Shown: positions 1,924 to 10,782 of the stretch, in pieces
How the letters are laid out: each line of letters opens with the position of its first letter
Numbering within the stretch: position 1 is the first letter of the stretch
Source: Armatimonadota bacterium
GTDB taxonomy: Bacteria; Armatimonadota; Fimbriimonadia; Fimbriimonadales; ATM1
Direction of reading: 5' to 3'
DNA length: 42,787 nucleotides
NCBI GenBank assembly: GCA_003577165.1
Contig: QEUM01000019.1
Span: 1 to 42,787 of the forward strand
The notes under the pieces: model-generated
The model's input: only the letters and a program-made list of their open reading frames with translations
What the model was told of the DNA's origin: nothing
Databases searched by the model: none
Made by a program: the position numbers and the translations under genes

Positions 1924-2182
1924 CTTTGAGTTCGCCTCCTAATCGGATCAGGTTCCTCTCGGCGCCTGCCTACACGTGATACGGCAGATTGGACGCGCAA
2001 CATTCCCAGGGGTTCACCGCGGCTGAGCGGAAGCACTTGCTGCGGGACCCACCAAAACCCAGCAATTTCCCGGAACGGCCGCAAACGGCCGAATGGAAGG
2101 TACCCACGGGGTCGAGGGTCTTTGCTGGCCCCATTCGCGGAGCGACGGATCGCTCCGGGATTCGAATCACGGAGGAAAACGA

Positions 2183-3616
2183 ATGTTTAGGATCAACACT
2201 AACCTCGGCGCGCTCAACGCGCTGAGAAACGTGGCAAACGCGGGGCTCGAGTTCAGCAAGTCGGTTACACGACTTTCGACCGGTCTCCGAATCGTCACGG
2301 GTGCGGACGATCCGGCCGGTCTCATCATTTCGGAGAATCTCCGATCGCAGATTGGTGGGTTGGACGCAGCTCTTCAGAATAACCAGGACGCAATCAACTA
2401 TGCCAAGACCGCCGAAGGCGCTCTTGAGGAAGTGAGCCGACTGCTCAACGACGCGCGAAAACTCGCCGTCGCCAGCGGTAACACCGGCGTTCTGGATGCT
2501 GCCGCGATTCAGGCGAACCAGAATCAGATTCAGTCGATTCTCTCGTCCATCAACCGAATCGCTGAGCAGACTCAGTTCGGCAACAAGAAGTTGCTCGACG
2601 GCTCTGCCGGTATCACTTCGACCGTGACAGATGCCGCCAACTTCGGCGCCATCAACATCGGTGGAACGTTCAACGGCCACACCGTCAACACGAGCGGCAC
2701 GGTCACCGTCCAAGTCACGCAGGCAGCGCAGCGCGCGTCCATCACGGGCTCTGTCGACCTGTCCGCGAGCGGACTCGACTCGATCATCGGCGCCGGCACC
2801 TTCGTCGTCAACGGTTACACGTTCACGACCGACGGGACCGGAACGCTTCAGGAACTCATCTCCGAGTTCAACGCCCAGTCCGACGTTACCGGCGTGACCT
2901 TCGGGTTCAACGGAACGAACGTGACGATGGTCAGCACGGGCTACGGCTCGAACGAGACCATCAGCTTCACGGACACCGCTGGCGAACTCAACACCGCTGG
3001 CAACGCAACGGACTCGGGTCAGGATGCCCTCGCGACCGTCACGGTCACGACGACTTCTGGAGCCGAGTCGGTCACCTTCACGGGCGGCCGCAACGGCGAC
3101 AGCGGCCTTCGACTGACGGACAACTACGGCAACTCGATCCTGCTCACCGAACAGGGCAACGCCGTCGCAGCCGCGGCTGCGGTTGGTCGAATCGACGCGG
3201 GTTCCGCTTCGTTCCAGATCGGCGCCAACGCCGGCCAGGTCGTGAGCCTGTCGCTCAGCAACGTCATGTCCAGCCAACTTGGACGCAGCGTCATCGCGGG
3301 CGAGAATCTCTCGACGATCGACATCACTACGGCGCAGGGCGTGGACGACGCGCTGAAGATCATCGACTCAGCCATCGCCGAAGTCTCGACGATGCGAGGA
3401 GACGTGGGCAACTTCCAGCGCAACGTTCTTCAAAGCAACATCCGATCGCTCGGCGTTGCTCGCGAGAACCTGATCGCGACCGAAAGTTCGATCCGCGACG
3501 CCGACATGGCGGGCGAGATCACCAACTTCACCAAGTTGCAGATCCTCCAGCAGGCTGGTCTGGCGGTGCTCGCTCAGGCGAACGCCTCACCGCAGGCCGT
3601 GCTGAGCCTTCTGTAA
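2183..3616 (+). CDS. fliC: Flagellin
   Basis: A 477-residue flagellin, the filament subunit exported through the flagellar type III apparatus. The N-terminal D0/D1 domain begins MFRINTNLGALNALRNV and contains the conserved LSTGLRI and ADDPAGLIISENLR helices. The C-terminal D0 domain ends with RENLIATESSIRDADMA and LAQANASPQAVLSLL. The middle (about residues 150-370) is a threonine-, serine- and glycine-rich variable region that includes a flagellin-IN-like stretch (TFVVNGYTFTTDGTGTLQEL); this is the surface-exposed D2/D3 part. I chose the ATG at 2183 because GGAGG at 2171-2175 precedes it and the homology begins there; the frame is open further upstream but that part is not flagellin-like. 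No other flagellar gene is in the window, so it is transcribed alone, with a terminator at 3640. Confidence 0.96.
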   Translation: MFRINTNLGALNALRNVANAGLEFSKSVTRLSTGLRIVTGADDPAGLIISENLRSQIGGLDAALQNNQDAINYAKTAEGALEEVSRLLNDARKLAVASGNTGVLDAAAIQANQNQIQSILSSINRIAEQTQFGNKKLLDGSAGITSTVTDAANFGAINIGGTFNGHTVNTSGTVTVQVTQAAQRASITGSVDLSASGLDSIIGAGTFVVNGYTFTTDGTGTLQELISEFNAQSDVTGVTFGFNGTNVTMVSTGYGSNETISFTDTAGELNTAGNATDSGQDALATVTVTTTSGAESVTFTGGRNGDSGLRLTDNYGNSILLTEQGNAVAAAAAVGRIDAGSASFQIGANAGQVVSLSLSNVMSSQLGRSVIAGENLSTIDITTAQGVDDALKIIDSAIAEVSTMRGDVGNFQRNVLQSNIRSLGVARENLIATESSIRDADMAGEITNFTKLQILQQAGLAVLAQANASPQAVLSLL

Positions 3617-3639: not shown

Positions 3640-3660
3640 GGCCGGGTTTCATTCCCGGCC
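3640..3660. terminator. Stem-loop terminator after the flagellin gene
   Basis: GGCCGGG and CCCGGCC form a 7-bp stem around a 7-base loop, 24 bases after the flagellin stop and followed by TTCGCGCTTTAT on the plus strand. The stop codon of the converging ADP-ribosylglycohydrolase gene (3649-3651) lies inside the loop, so the same hairpin can serve both transcripts. Confidence 0.7.
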
Positions 3661-4977
3661 TTCGCGCTTTATGAGCGAAACCGTTCGATTCGCTAGTTCT
3701 CGAATGCTGACGCGGTGAAACCCCGCCATCCCCGTTTCCAATGTGTCGCTAAGCGGCTCCGTCCAACTTTCCGGAATGCCGTCCGCCCCGAGGATCGCCC
3801 CCATGGTGGATCCCGAAGTCGCCCCATTGCAGTCCGTGTCGAAACCCGCGTCCACCGCGATGCACAGTGTTCGCCCGAAATCACCCCCTCCCCAAAGTAG
3901 CGCCAGCGCGACGATCTCCGCGTTCGAAATCGTGTGGCACCAATCATGAGGATCCCGCTCATCCCGCCGCGCGTGAAGTTCTTCGACAGCCGCGCTGACA
4001 TCGGGAAGCGAATCGCGATTCCTCAGTTGCCGGTCCAGCGCCTCGAAGATCCGCGACCTCTTTGGAATGCACGCCATCCCCACCTCAATTGCCTCTCTTG
4101 CATCGTCGCAAACGAGCGCCCAAGAAATCATCGCAGCCGCCCACATCTCGCCATAAATCCCGTTCTTCACGTGCGAGATGCTCGCGTCGCGCCACGCGAA
4201 GTCCGCAGCCCGCCGCGGGTCTCCCGGCGCAGCGTATCCCCAAAAGTCCGCTCGGATTTGCGCGCCGATCCACTCGCGATACGGGTTACCCCGCAAGGCA
4301 GACTCCGGCGGCCCGATGTTGTTCACGAAATTCCTGTATGCGACGCGCTCCGCCGTGCACGTGTGGAGGATCGGAAGATTCGACATCCAGTGGTTTGCGA
4401 CGTCCTCCGGCCGGAAACCTCTGCCATGCTTCTCATAGATCGACAGCCCGCACACCGTGTAGTTCAGGTCGTCGTCCTCCGGCATCCCGCTGACGCGGTC
4501 GATGAACGGGAGATTTCCTGCCGAGATCGGATCGGGGTGTTCCGCCCCCCCGCCCGAATGGATGTATTCCTGCAGAGGATACTGCCCCGTCTTTTGCAGG
4601 AACTCGTGAATCTGCACTCGCCGCCATCCCTCGACCGGCTTACCGAGAAGGCAGCCACAGCATCGCCCCATCCACGCGCCGTGAATCCGATCCTCGATCC
4701 GGTCGTCCCAGTCCCTCTGAGGGGGAGACCCGCACTCGGCGTGAATCTCCTCTAACGGGCTCGGCTCGACATACGCGTAGTCGCTCCTCGTGGGAAGTTT
4801 TGCGCTGACATCCAGAAGGCGAGCGACCTCATCGTGGATGCTATTCGAATCCGACTCGATGGCCTGAACCCGATCGAACTCGCTTCGCAGGTCGCCGAGG
4901 TCTTTCCCCTCATCCAGACACTGACGCAGTTCGATCTGCGCGTCCGTTTTCGTGAATCGCAGCCAGAGGTGATCCAT
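3649..4977 (-). CDS. ADP-ribosylglycohydrolase family protein
   Basis: A 442-residue member of the ADP-ribosylglycohydrolase (DraG/ARH) family, Mg-dependent hydrolases that remove ADP-ribose from proteins or small molecules. The family core starts near residue 92 (DRIHGAWMGRCCGCLLGKPVEG), has the first metal site at PEDDDLNYT in the middle, and the second at GFDTDCNGATSG near the C-terminus. The first 90 residues are an extra N-terminal helical region. This DDDxNYT/DTDCNGA subtype is common in environmental bacteria and often has unproven substrates, so protein de-ADP-ribosylation should not be assumed. It follows the barrel gene by 47 bp on the same strand and may be its downstream partner in a transcript. 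The ATG start has no clear Shine-Dalgarno. Confidence 0.88.
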   Translation of the reverse strand: MDHLWLRFTKTDAQIELRQCLDEGKDLGDLRSEFDRVQAIESDSNSIHDEVARLLDVSAKLPTRSDYAYVEPSPLEEIHAECGSPPQRDWDDRIEDRIHGAWMGRCCGCLLGKPVEGWRRVQIHEFLQKTGQYPLQEYIHSGGGAEHPDPISAGNLPFIDRVSGMPEDDDLNYTVCGLSIYEKHGRGFRPEDVANHWMSNLPILHTCTAERVAYRNFVNNIGPPESALRGNPYREWIGAQIRADFWGYAAPGDPRRAADFAWRDASISHVKNGIYGEMWAAAMISWALVCDDAREAIEVGMACIPKRSRIFEALDRQLRNRDSLPDVSAAVEELHARRDERDPHDWCHTISNAEIVALALLWGGGDFGRTLCIAVDAGFDTDCNGATSGSTMGAILGADGIPESWTEPLSDTLETGMAGFHRVSIRELANRTVSLIKREGRE

Positions 4978-5024: not shown

Positions 5025-8000
5025 TTAGAACTTCAGCTGGTAGTCCAACCGCAACTGCCAGTTCGACCAGGGCTCGTTCGTCGGCGCGCCGTCCAACCAA
5101 TCCAGGTAGCCCAGCATGAACGTCAACGTCTGGTTCGGCCCCGGCTTCTGGTCAAAGCCGATTTCGTAGATCGTCCTCGTCTTGCGCGTGCCGCCCTGCA
5201 GAGTGTTCTGCTCCGACGTGTAGGCGATCCTAAGCGGGCTTCCCGTGTTCCGGAACAGGTCCACTCCCAGGGTCGTTCGCCGTGCCAGCGTGTTCAACTG
5301 CAGGTTGTAAAGGTCCTGGAACGAGAATCGGAAAGCGGCGAAACTGTTCGGCGTGTAATCCACAGCCCAAGTCCTTCCCTGCGTCGGTTGAAGCAGCGAA
5401 CCGAGCAGCGCGTCGCCCTTCTTCTGCTCGGGCAAAAAGTCCGTCGTGTGAACCAACTTGAACTTGTCGCCCACCTTGTAACTAATGTCGTAATCCTTGA
5501 TGTACTGCGTGCCCCCGCTCGGTGTCGTCCGCACCTTGTACATCAAGTTCAACTGCAGCGGGTCCTTCCCGGAGGGATCGAGTTTGAATCCGAATGTTCT
5601 GTCTGCCGCGCGGATTTCGCCCGGCAGCATCACCTGACCGTACGCCGCCGAGATTTCGCTTCCCCAGATCTCGGCGCTGACCGATGCCAGTTCGTTCTCT
5701 CTCTGCCACACCCCGGCGTCGGTCAGGCTGTTGTAACCGACCGACAGGTTCACGTTCTTCAAAAGGCCGAAGTTGAACGGCTTCGTGTTCTTCAGGGAGA
5801 AGTTGCCGAGAGCGGTCGTCCGAATCCCATCGATTCGCTTCTCGTCATACGAACCCCCCACCTCGAACCCGCCGGTGGTGCCGTTCGTCAAGTCCGTCCG
5901 GTAATTCCGCTTCCCGCTTCCGTTCGAGTTGAGTTCTCGATACCACGTGTAGCCCAACTTCATGTTGTTCCCGAAATCATAGGTCGCAGCGAAATTCTGG
6001 AACGACAGATCCGGCCCGATGCCCTCGCGATCGATCGTGACCTGCGAAACGTTGAAGCCGAAGCGCTTGTTTACCTGCCAACCAAAGCCGTACGACTGTC
6101 CGCGCTCAGAGCTTCCGTCCGCAAATTCGTTTCGCACCTGCTCGGTCGAGAGAGTAGTCGAACTGGTCAACTTCGTTTCGTACTTCAAGTAGTCCGTCTC
6201 TCGGTCGGGCCTCGTGGACGTGGAGCCCATGTATTGCTCCTCTTCGTGCCTCAGAGTCAGCGTGCCGAACCGGCCGAACGACCTCGTTCCTTCCGCCAGC
6301 ATGAGGCTGTTACCGAAGAGCAAACCGTCGATGCCGTCCCACTGGTGATCGTCCAACCGGAACCGCACTTGCGTCGCCTTGTCCGGCGTGTAGATGAAGT
6401 TGGCAAAGTGCTTGAACCGCCGCTGCTCGGCGTTTCCGTTCGAAGAGTCGTACAAGAAAGCGTCCACCTTCAAGTTCTTGAGGAGGTCGCCCTTGAACGA
6501 GAGGTCGAACTGTCGGTACCCGAGGAGCGTCGTCAGGAAGTCCTTCTCCGGGTCCACGACGTCGGCTACGCGAGTGAACGAATCGTCTACCTCACGATAA
6601 TTACCGCGAAGTTCGAAGTTCTTCGTCTTCACCTCGGCGGAGTAGCGTTTCATCCCGCCATCGGCGGACGTCACGTCGAGGCCCTTGAGACCGACCTGCA
6701 TCCCACCGAACGAAAACGCAAGGCTCGCATCGGTTCTGTCGAATCCGCGCTGGTTTCCGAACAGTTTCCGTTCGGACTCGAGCAGGTCGAACGTCCGGTT
6801 GAAGCCTTCGTCAATCGTCTGCCGGCGATACATCAGGCTCAGGTTGGGGGCGGCGAAGTCGAAATACGTCTGCCGCAAGTCGCCGGACGTGTCTTCGATG
6901 CCGATCGAATCGAATCGGAAAGTCGAGTTCTTAGCGGGCGCTCCGGTGACGCGGAAGAACTCGCGCTGCATTCCCTCCTCTCGCGTAATCCAGGGGCGGT
7001 CCTTGTCGTTCAATCCCGCCTTTGGATCGTACATTCGCAGCGTGTCGACGATCATCGCGTCGAGTTCCGGCTGCGCAAGCGCGTTGAGCCTCCCGTAACC
7101 CGCGTTGCTCCCTCGTCGCCAGAACTCGAGCGAGTACGTGCCCAAGCCGATGGACGCGCTCGTCCAATCGAACGATCCCTGGTCCCAACCCAAAGATTTC
7201 TGCGAATAGGAGAGAGCGAACCCCGCCCGCTCCTTGGGGACTGCGAGCGAAAGTTCGCGGCGGTCCATGCCGACCTCCTTCGCCCACTGACCGCGCTCCG
7301 CTTCCGCGAGGTTCCCGGCTCTCTGGAAACCAGCGTCAATCGATTGATCGAGGTAACTCGCCTTCAAGTACGGCGAATCCAAACTCAGCGCAGTTCGGTG
7401 AACCCCGCCGTTCCGATCTTCGATGTCGTTCTGAGAGAACTTCAGCGTACTTCCGAGGAAATTGACTCCACCTCCGAACTCGCGCCGATCGATCCCACGC
7501 TCCTTCTGAAGTTGTTCGCGATCCGCTTCGGAGAGATCCTTGAACCGGTTAAATCTTTCGTCGATCGACCTCGACTTATAGAAGAGGTCGAACACCGCCG
7601 ACTTGACGGCGTAATCTTGATATTCGATCTTCCCGTCTCGATCTTCGATGGTTCTGTAACTGTTCGTGAAAGAAAGCCCGCCGAGATTGACTCCGCTCAT
7701 GCCGAGTCCCATCCTCTGAAGGCCCTTCTCCTTCTCCAGTTGCTTTGCTCTCTCCGCTTCGACGCCCGCCGTGCCGAGCATTCCGAAACCCGCGAACTTC
7801 TCGTCCACTTTTTGGTAGTCTGCCGAAATCTTCACTCCGCCGTAATCGCCGGAGAAGTTCTGCATGATCAGCGTGCCGGTTCCTTCGACGCCCTGCTTCG
7901 TGACGCCCTGATCGAGTGATGCCGAGTCGGCGCGCGTCAGCGACGTCGTCCTATTGCTGACCAGGAACAGGCCTGACAACTGCCCGCCCGCAAACGCGAG

Positions 8001-8519
8001 TTGGTTGTTCATCCCGACGTCTTGCGCGTTCATCAGCGTCCCGTCGGCAAACCGCGAAGCGCCCGCCAACCCCAGGAACATGTTGAGTTGGCCCGCCGTC
8101 CCGAAATTCAGAGCGATGATCGGAAGCGAACTAAATGCGCTCGAAGACTTCGAGCTCGGGTCGTGACGATAACTCACACGGATGGACTGTTCTGGTCGGA
8201 CCTCACTCGCCAGGTAGAGCATCCCCCCCGCGTAATCCATCGAAAAGTCCTGCCCTTCTTTCAGCGGCACGCCGTCGAGGAACACTTGCGCGCTCCCCCT
8301 AATCACGTTCCCGTAGCGGAGCGGATAGCCAAGTCCCTTCTTTAGGCCCGGCATGATGTCGATCGCCGGCCGCCCGCCGAGCGTCATCGCCGACGCGGAA
8401 GGCGTGTCGTTGAACACGGCATTGAACTCTTGCGCCGCCCCCGCGGCCGCAAGCGAGATTGCGAGCGCCGATGCTCCGACGCCTCTCATCATCTTGCCGT
8501 TCTTCCCCTTCCTCACCAT
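5025..8519 (-). CDS. Giant repeat-containing outer-membrane beta-barrel protein
   Basis: A 1,164-residue secreted protein that I do not recognise as a named family. A signal peptide (ALAISLAAAGAAQ) is followed near residues 70-118 by a domain with the pattern IRG-x4-FLDGVPL-x2-GQDFSMDY-x-GGMLYL, resembling strand units in very large surface barrels such as SprA-type proteins (inference). Residues about 231-700 contain six degenerate tandem units of 75-97 residues. Each opens with a beta strand and an (S/T)ID-x-x-F-x-R motif (near 238, 318, 393, 471, 568, 644), then usually a charged helix of the form EAER-x5-KE-x-G-x-DRRE, then a hairpin with IED-x-G. The rest alternates hydrophobic and polar residues like barrel strands and ends RLDYQLKF, the aromatic C-terminus expected for Bam-dependent insertion. 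The first ATG has no ribosome site; Met10 or Met11 (8492/8489), preceded by a purine-rich AGGAAGGGGAAG, may be the true start. Confidence 0.8.
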   Translation of the reverse strand: MVRKGKNGKMMRGVGASALAISLAAAGAAQEFNAVFNDTPSASAMTLGGRPAIDIMPGLKKGLGYPLRYGNVIRGSAQVFLDGVPLKEGQDFSMDYAGGMLYLASEVRPEQSIRVSYRHDPSSKSSSAFSSLPIIALNFGTAGQLNMFLGLAGASRFADGTLMNAQDVGMNNQLAFAGGQLSGLFLVSNRTTSLTRADSASLDQGVTKQGVEGTGTLIMQNFSGDYGGVKISADYQKVDEKFAGFGMLGTAGVEAERAKQLEKEKGLQRMGLGMSGVNLGGLSFTNSYRTIEDRDGKIEYQDYAVKSAVFDLFYKSRSIDERFNRFKDLSEADREQLQKERGIDRREFGGGVNFLGSTLKFSQNDIEDRNGGVHRTALSLDSPYLKASYLDQSIDAGFQRAGNLAEAERGQWAKEVGMDRRELSLAVPKERAGFALSYSQKSLGWDQGSFDWTSASIGLGTYSLEFWRRGSNAGYGRLNALAQPELDAMIVDTLRMYDPKAGLNDKDRPWITREEGMQREFFRVTGAPAKNSTFRFDSIGIEDTSGDLRQTYFDFAAPNLSLMYRRQTIDEGFNRTFDLLESERKLFGNQRGFDRTDASLAFSFGGMQVGLKGLDVTSADGGMKRYSAEVKTKNFELRGNYREVDDSFTRVADVVDPEKDFLTTLLGYRQFDLSFKGDLLKNLKVDAFLYDSSNGNAEQRRFKHFANFIYTPDKATQVRFRLDDHQWDGIDGLLFGNSLMLAEGTRSFGRFGTLTLRHEEEQYMGSTSTRPDRETDYLKYETKLTSSTTLSTEQVRNEFADGSSERGQSYGFGWQVNKRFGFNVSQVTIDREGIGPDLSFQNFAATYDFGNNMKLGYTWYRELNSNGSGKRNYRTDLTNGTTGGFEVGGSYDEKRIDGIRTTALGNFSLKNTKPFNFGLLKNVNLSVGYNSLTDAGVWQRENELASVSAEIWGSEISAAYGQVMLPGEIRAADRTFGFKLDPSGKDPLQLNLMYKVRTTPSGGTQYIKDYDISYKVGDKFKLVHTTDFLPEQKKGDALLGSLLQPTQGRTWAVDYTPNSFAAFRFSFQDLYNLQLNTLARRTTLGVDLFRNTGSPLRIAYTSEQNTLQGGTRKTRTIYEIGFDQKPGPNQTLTFMLGYLDWLDGAPTNEPWSNWQLRLDYQLKF

Positions 8520-8550: not shown

Positions 8551-9456
8551 CTATGCGCCCTTCTTCACCGCCTCCTTGAGTTCGTTCTGGTTCGCGTTCA
8601 GTTTCTTCAGTTGCTCCCTCAGCCGGTTCCTCGCCTCGGGTGAGGGCTCGTCGGATTTCGAAGAGGTCACGACCCGCTGCTCCCTTTCCTCTGAAGAGGC
8701 AAGAAGCGCCACCGGATCTGGCTCTTCTGCGGCCATCTTCGGGGTCACGCCGAACGTCGGCCCATAAAGGCTGACTTTCGGCGACGAGTGCGCGCTCAGC
8801 GCGCCGGCGGACTCAGGCGCAGCTGTGCGGCCGCCGCCAAGCGCGGCTCCTCCCGACCCTGCTCCAGGATCCGGCGAGAGCGTGCCTCCAGCCAGCCGAG
8901 TGTCCGCCTCGGTCGCCCGCGGCCTCAGGGAGCGCCGTGCGCCCTTCGTCTCGCCGGCTGGGTTGGCTTGAGCCACAAGCTGTTCGCTGCCGGCCCGGCC
9001 GGAAGCCTCGGGCACCACGGAGACTCGCCCCGGGTCTGTGGGCGAAGCGGCAGAAGCGTCCACGATCCGGGCGCCTGGGACATAGGGCTCGACGTCGCTC
9101 GGCCGCAGCAGGAATACGGCGAGACCGGCCGCGGCTGCCGGCACGGCGATACGAAGCGCCGCGGGCAGCGTCAGACGAATTCGTCTGCGGGTCGTCGCGT
9201 CGAGGATCGCCCCCTCGAGCCAGGAAGGCGCCTCAAACCTTTGGGCCTGCGCCAGGATCGCGCTCCCCCCACGTAGGTCCGCGAGCAGCCTCCGACCCTC
9301 CGCGCTCTGCGCGATGTAAGCCTCAACCAAGCGCCTCTCTTTCGGGGTCGCTTCGCCGTCAGCGTAGGCCGAGATCAACTCGAACATCTCCTCGTCCAGG
9401 TTCTCCCCAGCCGTGACCAGTTCGAGTTCGTCCCAAATGTCGTGGTTTTCGTGCAT
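8551..9456 (-). CDS. Anti-sigma-factor-like membrane protein without zinc ligands
   Basis: A 301-residue protein laid out like a membrane anti-sigma factor. The N-terminal cytoplasmic part contains FELISAYADGEATPKERRLV and LLADLRGGSAIL, the helical pattern of anti-sigma domains. One membrane span follows near residues 100-118 (ALRIAVPAAAAGLAVFLL). The remainder is a long extracytoplasmic region, low-complexity in Pro/Gly/Ala/Ser, ending in a charged helix (RNRLREQLKKLNANQNELKE) that may be a coiled coil. The His-x3-Cys-x2-Cys motif of zinc-binding anti-sigma domains is absent; the protein has no cysteine. GGAGCGG precedes the ATG. It is the first gene of the unit with the barrel (31 bp gap), and no sigma factor is adjacent. 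It could instead be an envelope scaffold protein. Confidence 0.6.
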   Translation of the reverse strand: MHENHDIWDELELVTAGENLDEEMFELISAYADGEATPKERRLVEAYIAQSAEGRRLLADLRGGSAILAQAQRFEAPSWLEGAILDATTRRRIRLTLPAALRIAVPAAAAGLAVFLLRPSDVEPYVPGARIVDASAASPTDPGRVSVVPEASGRAGSEQLVAQANPAGETKGARRSLRPRATEADTRLAGGTLSPDPGAGSGGAALGGGRTAAPESAGALSAHSSPKVSLYGPTFGVTPKMAAEEPDPVALLASSEEREQRVVTSSKSDEPSPEARNRLREQLKKLNANQNELKEAVKKGA

Positions 9457-9573
9457 GTCCGCTCCGAGTCGCTTCTTGATCCGACCCGTTCAGTTAGACC
9501 CCCCAGACTCCGCTGCGTGTCGGCGTGGGGGGGCGGTTTCCTCCCTATTTCTCGGTCGTTTAGGGTATCCTTT

Positions 9574-9700
9574 GACCGTCTCCGCAGACAGTCGGCGTCC
9601 CAAACCGGGACTTAATCCGCGAGGGCCGACCGAGGGGCAGCGAACTAGGCCTGACAAGTTTTGTTTGGGCCCCGCAGCCTGTGCGGGGCCTAAATCATTT
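9574..9700 (+). promoter_or_regulatory. Ribosomal protein L10 autoregulatory leader with attenuator hairpin
   Basis: The 5' leader of rplJ shows the hallmarks of the L10 leader RNA, to which the L10(L12)4 complex binds to repress its own operon. AGACAG (9586-9591) opens the kink-turn region. GTCGGC (9591-9596) pairs with GCCGAC (9625-9630). Inside, GTCCC (9597-9601) pairs with GGGAC (9607-9611), followed by TTAAT (9612-9616). CGAGG (9631-9635) completes the conserved CCGAGG element. Downstream, GGCCCCGCA (9668-9676) and TGCGGGGCC (9682-9690) make a 9-bp hairpin followed by TAAATCATTT, probably an attenuating terminator. A weak TATCCT at 9566 is the only -10-like element I see just upstream. 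Confidence 0.8.
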
Positions 9701-9715
9701 GGAAGGAATCGAATC

Positions 9716-10381
9716 GTGCCCACTCCAGCAAAAAGTGCATTAATCGATCGAGCCACTGAGTGGTACGGTAAATCGGTTGGCGTCATCTTTACGGACTACC
9801 GCGGGCTCTCCGTGCGCGACATGCAGGAGCTCCGAAAGTCGCTCCGCCAAGCAGGCGCAGAGTACCGGGTCGTAAAGAACACGCTGTTCCGGATCGCGGT
9901 CGGCGACGACATCGCGAAGTTCCCCGCCGAGTTCCACAACGGAACCACGGCAACCGCCTTCATCTTCCAAGAGGAAACCGCTTGCGCGAAGGCCCTAACT
10001 GATTTCAAGAAGACACATCCGACCTTTTCCATCAAGGGCGGATTCGTCCAAGGTCGAGCCCTCTCGGCCGCCGAAGTCGAGGCCTTCGCCAAACTCCCTG
10101 GGAAGAAAGAACTCCTCGCGCAAATCGTGGGAGTGATGGCTGCGCCGATCTCCAATGTCGTAGGCATCATGAACGAGTTGCTCGCTGCGCCGATTCGACT
10201 CGTCGCTGCGATCGAGGAAAAGGGCGGGGGGGCGCCGTCGACGGCAACAGCACAAGCGCCCGAACCCGCTCCCGTCGAAGCGGCCGCCGAGGCCGCGCCC
10301 GAACCGGAGCAGGAAGCACAAGCAACCGAAACCGAACCCGAAGCGACCACAGCAGAGGAATCTGCAACCGAATCTGAATAA
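9716..10381 (+). CDS. rplJ: 50S ribosomal protein L10
   Basis: L10, the stalk base protein that anchors L7/L12 dimers to the large subunit. The GTG start at 9716 is preceded by GGAAGGAA at 9701-9708 and gives 221 residues beginning [20 protein letters not shown]. Conserved parts are [58 protein letters not shown] and the C-terminal L12-binding helix [20 protein letters not shown]. It carries an unusual acidic, Ala/Glu/Pro-rich tail of about 45 residues (from about 175 on) beyond the normal end; most bacterial L10 proteins are about 165-175 residues. It is followed by rplL after 11 bp. The reading frame is open upstream to 9413, but that part covers the leader RNA and is not L10-like. Confidence 0.97.
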
Positions 10382-10392
10382 GGAGTCAAGTC

Positions 10393-10782
10393 ATGCCTAG
10401 TGCAATTGAGGAAATCGTAGACAAAATCGCAAATCTCACCGTTCTCGAACTCAGCGAACTCAAGAAGTTGATGGAAGAGCGCTTCGACGTCACGGCTGCC
10501 GCCGCTATGCCGGTCGGCATGCCCATGATGATGCCCGCGGGCGGCGGAGACGCCGCTGCGGCGGAAGAGAAGACCAGTTTCGACGTGATCCTGTCCGAAG
10601 TCGGCGGCGCGAAACTGCAGGTCATCAAAGTCGTTCGCGAAGTCACCGGCCTCGGCCTGAAAGAAGCCAAGGACCTGGTGGACGCGGCGCCTGGCAAGAT
10701 CAAAGAGGGCGTGACGAAGGACGAAGCGGAGAAGATCAAGGCTACCGTCGAGGAAGCGGGCGGAAAAGTCGAGATCAAGTAA
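10393..10782 (+). CDS. rplL: 50S ribosomal protein L7/L12
   Basis: L7/L12, the multimeric stalk protein that recruits translational GTPases. The 129 residues have the usual layout: an N-terminal dimerisation/L10-binding domain ([20 protein letters not shown]), an Ala/Met/Gly-rich hinge (about residues 36-58), and the globular C-terminal domain starting [13 protein letters not shown] with [20 protein letters not shown] and ending GGKVEIK. AAGGAG at 10380-10385 precedes the ATG. It is cotranscribed with rplJ. In most bacteria rpoB follows; here a terminator and a converging recombinase gene follow instead. Confidence 0.98.

Follow-up and report, generated by a model that had tools for sequence, protein, structure and literature searches.

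A predicted giant outer-membrane barrel protein of Armatimonadota with four-strand repeat units and helical inserts

The locus

The window analysed here is the whole of a 42,787-nucleotide stretch from an Armatimonadota bacterium of the order Fimbriimonadales (contig QEUM01000019.1, positions 1 to 42,787). Positions 5025-8519 hold an open reading frame (ORF) for a protein of 1,164 aa, read on the minus strand from 8519 down to 5025; the plus strand of this interval is interrupted by stops. The encoded protein looks exported, ends in a C-terminus of the outer-membrane protein (OMP) type and has an N-terminal SprA-like module followed by an antiparallel meander of ~54 strands, of which strands 2-25 are made of four-strand units. 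Its gene directly follows, in most lineages, one for a proline-rich membrane protein with a zf-HC2 domain and a single transmembrane segment. It belongs to an outer-membrane barrel family with its own, new repeat layout.

The general features of an outer-membrane beta-barrel are present: a signal peptide (by eye), an aromatic C-terminal strand and amphipathic antiparallel strands. The first two had been pointed out in an initial annotation of this DNA, and the translation bears them out. The features of the pair of genes are as follows.

5025..8519, minus strand: giant outer-membrane barrel gene (ORF and translation; orthologues of ~1150-1190 aa in nearly all genomes of the order)
8433..8519, minus strand: N-terminal signal peptide, approximately residues 1-29 (hydrophobic at ~11-29, ending ...AAQ, kept in orthologues; judged by eye)
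8160..8336, minus strand: SprA-like module, residues ~62-120, ahead of the first long strand and presumably periplasmic (SprA and TIGR04189 profile matches)
5028..6518, minus strand: 29 C-terminal strands without helical inserts, residues 668-1164 (AlphaFold2 (AF2); equal count in an orthologue; covariation)
5028..5066, minus strand: C-terminal strand ...LRLDYQLKF, an OMP-type beta-signal (Tyr1160 invariant and Phe1164 nearly invariant among orthologues)
8551..9456, minus strand: upstream partner gene, 301 aa, with a degenerate zf-HC2-type domain (E 5e-5), one apparent transmembrane segment and a proline/alanine-rich tail; 31 nt before the barrel gene

Six tandem repeat units

The initial annotation had placed six repeat units near residues 231, 311, 388, 465, 562 and 637. 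A hidden Markov model (HMM) built from the units of 28 sequences recovers all six, starting at residues 230, 310, 386, 463, 560 and 635.

7596..7835, minus strand: repeat unit 1, residues 229-308 (HMM 230-307, 3e-18; hhalign)
7368..7592, minus strand: repeat unit 2, residues 310-384 (HMM 310-383, 1e-23)
7140..7364, minus strand: repeat unit 3, residues 386-460 (HMM 386-457, 1e-19), nearest to unit 2
6846..7136, minus strand: repeat unit 4, long form, residues 462-558 (HMM 463-556, 3e-14)
6621..6842, minus strand: repeat unit 5, residues 560-633 (HMM 560-633, 5e-18)
6384..6617, minus strand: repeat unit 6, residues 635-712 (HMM 635-697, 1e-15)

When unit profiles from 28 orthologues were compared by hhalign, 14 of the 15 unit pairs were related, with p-values from ~4e-5 (units 1 and 4) to 2e-22 (units 2 and 3). 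Only units 1 and 6 fell under the 20% probability below which pairs are not printed. Control windows from the N- and C-terminal parts gave nothing above 24% probability, except for two windows that share residues. Across 21 genomes, the unit profile matched only the barrel protein or its fragments. Unit 4 was described earlier as the longer one; it measures 94 aa by the HMM, and a long unit stands at the same place in most other classes checked. Of the IED-x-G hairpins ascribed to most units, those of units 1, 2 and 4 are clear, whereas those of units 3, 5 and 6 are weak.

Predicted structure and topology

Two AF2 runs were made, one with the window protein as lead and one with an orthologue that is 32% identical (L025). 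The predicted local distance difference test (pLDDT) was 82.4 for the window protein and 84.0 for the orthologue, and the predicted template modelling score (pTM) was 0.46 and 0.49, respectively. The two models are not fully independent because their alignments are mostly common to both. In both, a small beta module at residues ~49-120 is followed by 54 long antiparallel strands (strands of fewer than 8 residues were left out of the count), and helical inserts come at every fourth strand, after strands 5, 9, 13, 17, 21 and 25. The periodicity for which the initial annotation had looked to structure prediction is thus seen in both models.

7719..7805, minus strand: helical surface insert 1, residues 239-267 (AF2 helices 247-250 and 255-263)
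7491..7562, minus strand: helical surface insert 2, residues 320-343 (AF2 helix 334-339), the best conserved insert (mean column identity 0.68)
7266..7337, minus strand: helical surface insert 3, residues 395-418 (AF2 helix 406-414)
6969..7106, minus strand: helical surface insert 4, long, residues 472-517 (AF2 helices 483-495 and 507-511)
6741..6812, minus strand: helical surface insert 5, residues 570-593 (AF2 helix 581-587)
6519..6587, minus strand: helical surface insert 6, residues 645-667 (AF2 helix 659-664)

The numbers of strands flanking the inserts are both odd, with 5 before the first insert and 29 after the last. Outer-membrane barrels usually have both termini in the periplasm, and with the termini so placed the odd counts at both ends would put all six inserts on the cell-surface side of the models. 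Loops are longer on the side that carries the inserts (p 0.0016, or p 0.03 when the six inserts are left out). Hydrophobic alternation along the strands, averaged over orthologues, lay above all 1000 shuffles (z 3.9). Conservation of the helical loops was 0.47-0.68, compared to 0.49 for strands and 0.42 for other surface loops. Surface loops are rarely conserved to this degree; a lid or a lining would be in keeping with it.

Covariation between strands

We derived residue couplings from 99 non-redundant orthologues (effective number 77) using a reduced amino-acid alphabet, with strand ends taken from the AF2 model. Neighbouring strands were coupled far above other pairs (p 9e-24), and for 43 of the 53 neighbour pairs the score was higher in the antiparallel than in the parallel orientation (p 1.2e-7). 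Three-quarters (75%) of the best registers lay no more than 2 residues from a tight hairpin. Although its strand ends are model-derived, the covariation supports the hairpin meander by evidence that stands apart from the models. Strands 25 and 26, between which the helical repeats end, covary like other hairpins (3.0 antiparallel, 2.25 parallel).

Some non-neighbour couplings (17-22, 5-38 and 5-28) exceed those of most neighbour pairs, and may be contacts, or may arise artificially from the repeats or from common ancestry.

Family and fold searches

No Pfam, NCBIfam or PDB family matched over the full length of the protein, and a full-length profile search of the PDB returned no credible match. 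The initial annotation had called this a family outside those it knew, and in keeping with this there was no confident full-length match to LptD, SprA or BamA-type proteins. At E 0.01, the window's genome yielded no match to PF04453 (LptD), and scanning the protein and its orthologues with Pfam gave none. Pfam detected no Omp85 domain (PF01103) in the barrel or its orthologues; the genome's single match is another gene (contig C20, 16188-17159). For SlpA_C, the genome likewise gave nothing at E 0.01, and weak matches below the cut-off appeared in a few orthologues.

The similarity that we did find is local. By profile comparison, residues ~62-103 match residues 687-728 of Flavobacterium johnsoniae SprA (E 5.4e-5), and the window protein also matches positions 599-652 of TIGR04189 (E 3.6e-4). 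The 200-bit cut-off of TIGR04189 was reached in none of 21 genomes, and essentially only its positions ~592-690 matched. There were also weak matches to DUF2460 (Pfam) and to a phage tail-tube family (NCBIfam). Because the place of the DUF2460 match in the window protein is that of the N-terminal module, we take both kinds of match to reflect this one small beta module, not an origin from phage.

The SprA-like module is also found in a second protein of 858 aa, seemingly in two copies and with no Pfam match (L099, 1775-4351; in the window's own genome, G000, contig C17, 101774-104350, minus strand). Its gene adjoins genes for a polysaccharide pyruvyl transferase (PS_pyruv_trans), a DUF5693 protein and a rhomboid protease, and proteins of ~860-1100 aa with the module occur in relatives as well. 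As a separate observation, TIGR04183 C-terminal sorting-type domains were found in several Fimbriimonadales proteins (genomes G002, G004, G005, G006, G008 and G019), with no full SprA found; in the window's own genome the match (G000, contig C8, 93566-93802) is below cut-off.

Foldseek ranked SprA first for both models (E ~2e-8 to 3e-8) with TM-scores below 0.2, and the best 20 matches were SprA, LptD, FimD and ApoB chains together with a few other membrane barrels. Because the TM-scores are so low and human ApoB100 ranks beside SprA, we take this search to show only a long antiparallel meander. VIA-align, confined to the Foldseek candidates, superposed membrane barrels on parts of the model (Z 13-20, root mean square deviation (rmsd) often >10 Å).

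Distribution and unit number

Matches were found in 57 of 61 sampled genomes of the order, two of them short matches to the N-terminal module only. The remaining matched genomes each have a single orthologue, split over contigs in two assemblies, and complete orthologues are ~1150-1190 aa long. Over the phylum, 239 of 291 genomes gave a profile match, which covers the full length in the order and family f19 but only part of it, or a short piece, in other groups. The named relatives are Fimbriimonadales and other Armatimonadota. An alignment scan gave 32 loci, and the all-species pattern scan used a 9-residue motif; a contig scan with a single protein as query found no relatives. Two of the sequences carry titles that look wrong: JADZEW010000008.1 (L027, titled Methanoregulaceae archaeon SJ84) and CAMCWC010000020.1 (L032, titled Chthonomonas calidirosea) hold Fimbriimonadales-type orthologues.

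In eight further families the proteins are 1,071-1,290 aa long, nearly all with five or six units, and most end in an aromatic residue or one residue past it. The order of units in the five-unit proteins is, in most cases, unit 1, one unit of the unit 2/unit 3 type, a long unit at the place of unit 4, unit 5 and unit 6. Relatives therefore differ by one whole four-strand unit, since the five-unit order holds a single unit of the unit 2/unit 3 type. One five-unit protein (L082) fits a different order.

The upstream partner and neighbouring genes

In at least 53 genomes, drawn from 11 families (f1, f2, f3, f12, f13, f14, f19, f26, f32, f33 and f35), the partner and barrel genes are adjacent and share a strand, as tallied by eye from match positions. 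The zf-HC2 profile matched 15 of 16 partners. The H-x3-C-x2-C ligands are kept in most other classes and lost in the window's family and some others. In other classes the partner's tail usually ends in a strand-like xIxVDVIxxxF that resembles an OMP C-terminus, and the last ~50 residues can be read from their sequence as a possible beta-alpha-beta fold. The closing Phe (or Tyr) found in most other classes (L072-L085) is like an OMP beta-signal, and such a tail may avoid the beta-barrel assembly machinery (BAM) or use it.

Two f35 genomes have a gene for an extracytoplasmic function (ECF)-type sigma factor next to the pair in divergent orientation, and in one f4 genome (L044) such a gene stands immediately upstream of the barrel gene. 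In most loci read, no linked sigma gene was found by blastp with three sigma queries, a search that would miss a distant sigma. Neighbours other than the partner vary between families, and no conserved operon with metabolic genes was found. Pairing with the partner is not required everywhere, given the f4 loci that are without it and a copy in the window that has neither the Zn ligands nor the tail.

Elsewhere in the window, rplJ and rplL (named from their sequences; 9413-10782, plus strand) diverge from the barrel-partner pair. A flagellin gene (Flagellin_N, Flagellin_C; 2093-3616, plus strand) lies beside an ADP-ribosylglycohydrolase gene (3649-4977, minus strand). Searches of the window against Rfam and for tRNAs returned nothing.

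Discussion

We tentatively favour, at somewhat less than an even chance, a core outer-membrane barrel family of Armatimonadota that forms a wide closed barrel with surface helices gating its pore, acts as an export conduit and contacts the partner. The meander would close into one very wide barrel, and the six helical loops at the surface may fold over or into the pore and so narrow or gate it, with the SprA-like module on the periplasmic side. Such a protein might serve as a gated export conduit that works like SprA without being a member of the SprA family. In lineages that keep a complete partner, the partner's periplasmic tail might contact the barrel and link it with the inner membrane or with gene regulation. 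The gated conduit is our first choice, held with low confidence, because of the conserved helical loops, the very wide predicted wall and the SprA-like module. We regard as doubtful the fuller picture of a 54-strand chain that closes to a ~95 Å barrel and has been enlarged by four-strand units, each with its own surface helix, so that the lid grows along with the wall, while the strand-like tail of the co-encoded inner-membrane protein reaches the barrel in most lineages.

Several observations weigh against a closed, gated conduit paired with the zf-HC2 protein. The coupling between strands 1 and 54 is at background (score 1.32; 884 of 1326 non-neighbour pairs are as high), strands 29-35 are rather polar for a lipid-facing wall, and the global shape is not fixed because pTM is only 0.46-0.49. 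A closed round barrel of 54 strands would measure ~95 Å across and would therefore need a plug. No cargo, motor or carrier was identified, and two reduced genomes (1.5 Mb) keep BamA yet are without the barrel. In the window, the partner has neither Zn ligands nor the strand-like tail, both lost in the window's family, and the loci read in the Fimbriimonadaceae (f4) carry other genes upstream, often one for a Gfo/Idh-type oxidoreductase (named from sequence).

The closure itself is where the nearest alternative lies. Instead of one barrel, the 54 strands might make two adjacent ones, perhaps split into strands 1-25, which bear the helical loops, and strands 26-54, or they might make an open sheet that another protein completes. 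The missing covariation between the first and last strands and the low pTM are both consistent with this, as are the end of the helical repeats at strand 25 and a partial superposition of the C-terminal part on SlpA (Z 14.9, rmsd 5.8 Å, 261 residues). However, the strand 25-26 pair covaries like other hairpins, which argues that the meander is uninterrupted there, and two barrels of 25 and 29 strands would both have odd strand numbers, which is unusual in bacterial barrels. With the meander running on at strands 25-26, we put a single closed barrel only just short of an even chance and consider the two-barrel or open-sheet arrangement a possible but less probable one. The sequential-repeat barrel proposed by the initial annotation stands insofar as a helical insert recurs at every fourth strand in two models; the repeats cover only strands 2-25 of the ~54 in what would be a closed barrel. 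The helices may, as it also proposed, bind a partner or each other.

The function may also lie elsewhere than in export. The barrel and its partner could be a trans-envelope signalling pair like FecA/FecR; a ligand at the surface, or how the barrel is folded, would then be signalled via the partner's periplasmic tail to a sigma factor in the cytoplasm. The widespread adjacency of the two genes, the zf-HC2 matches in nearly all partners, the proline/alanine-rich region with the xIxVDVIxxxF tail of other classes and the ECF-type sigma genes in f35 and in one f4 genome would all suit such a sensor. It is harder to reconcile with the f4 loci that are without the partner, the lost H-x3-C-x2-C ligands, the lack of any match to a TonB-receptor family and the many loci in which blastp found no sigma-like gene beside the pair. 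We rate this as unlikely, and equal to it a large channel, similar to SlpA/OmpM or SusC, that takes up polymers or big solutes either passively or with substrate specificity. OmpM is described as both a tether and a nutrient channel in some diderm Terrabacteria (PMC10628300). Weak SlpA_C matches inside a few orthologues and partial structural matches to SlpA and to TonB-receptor barrels point the same way, but the SlpA_C matches fall mostly on other genes of the same genomes, Pfam detects neither an SLH domain nor a TonB plug, and no metabolic neighbours are constant.

A divergent SprA that acts as the translocon of an Armatimonadota type 9 secretion system would account for the SprA-like module, for SprA being first in both Foldseek runs and for the several C-terminal domain (CTD)-like sorting domains (TIGR04183) in relatives. 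We consider it very improbable: no genome searched passes the family cut-off, with essentially the one short segment matched, 54 strands are predicted instead of 36, and the protein has half the length of SprA. Neither GldM nor PorV was matched in 21 genomes, but these searches matched no control either.

The gated conduit remains the reading that we prefer. For a group of bacteria whose envelope has received little study, the barrel is an additional core outer-membrane protein, uncharacterised and present across the phylum. SprA, with 36 strands, is the largest solved single-chain barrel that we found (PMC10994853, PMC9581022), and larger predicted families may have been published. Should the closed 54-strand form be true, the known size limit of single-chain barrels would be raised to half again that of SprA, and the family would clearly exemplify barrels that grow by the addition of entire multi-strand units, its five-unit and six-unit members offering a natural comparison. 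Through the linked zf-HC2 protein, a coupling of the outer membrane to the cytoplasm can be tested directly.

Comparison with known systems

With SprA/Sov (TIGR04189; PDB 6h3i, 8gl6) the protein shares the design of a very large single-chain outer-membrane barrel and a common module of ~40-60 residues. It differs in having ~54 predicted strands (pTM <0.5) in 1,164 aa, compared to 36 strands in ~2,400 aa. We know of no four-strand repeat with one helix per unit in SprA. LptD (PF04453) is likewise a large barrel and gives partial fold matches, but has 26 strands (PMC9581022) and shows no family match. Deinococcus SlpA and OmpM-type proteins (PF21620) resemble the protein as wide outer-membrane barrels of a deep-branching diderm and superpose on it in part, whereas the protein and 27 orthologues have no SLH domain by Pfam and related genomes encode separate SlpA_C-like proteins. 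The FecA/FecR system has in common with this locus an outer-membrane barrel gene beside a gene for an anti-sigma-like protein with a single transmembrane segment, but here no TonB plug or FecR domain was detected and the sigma gene is usually unlinked.

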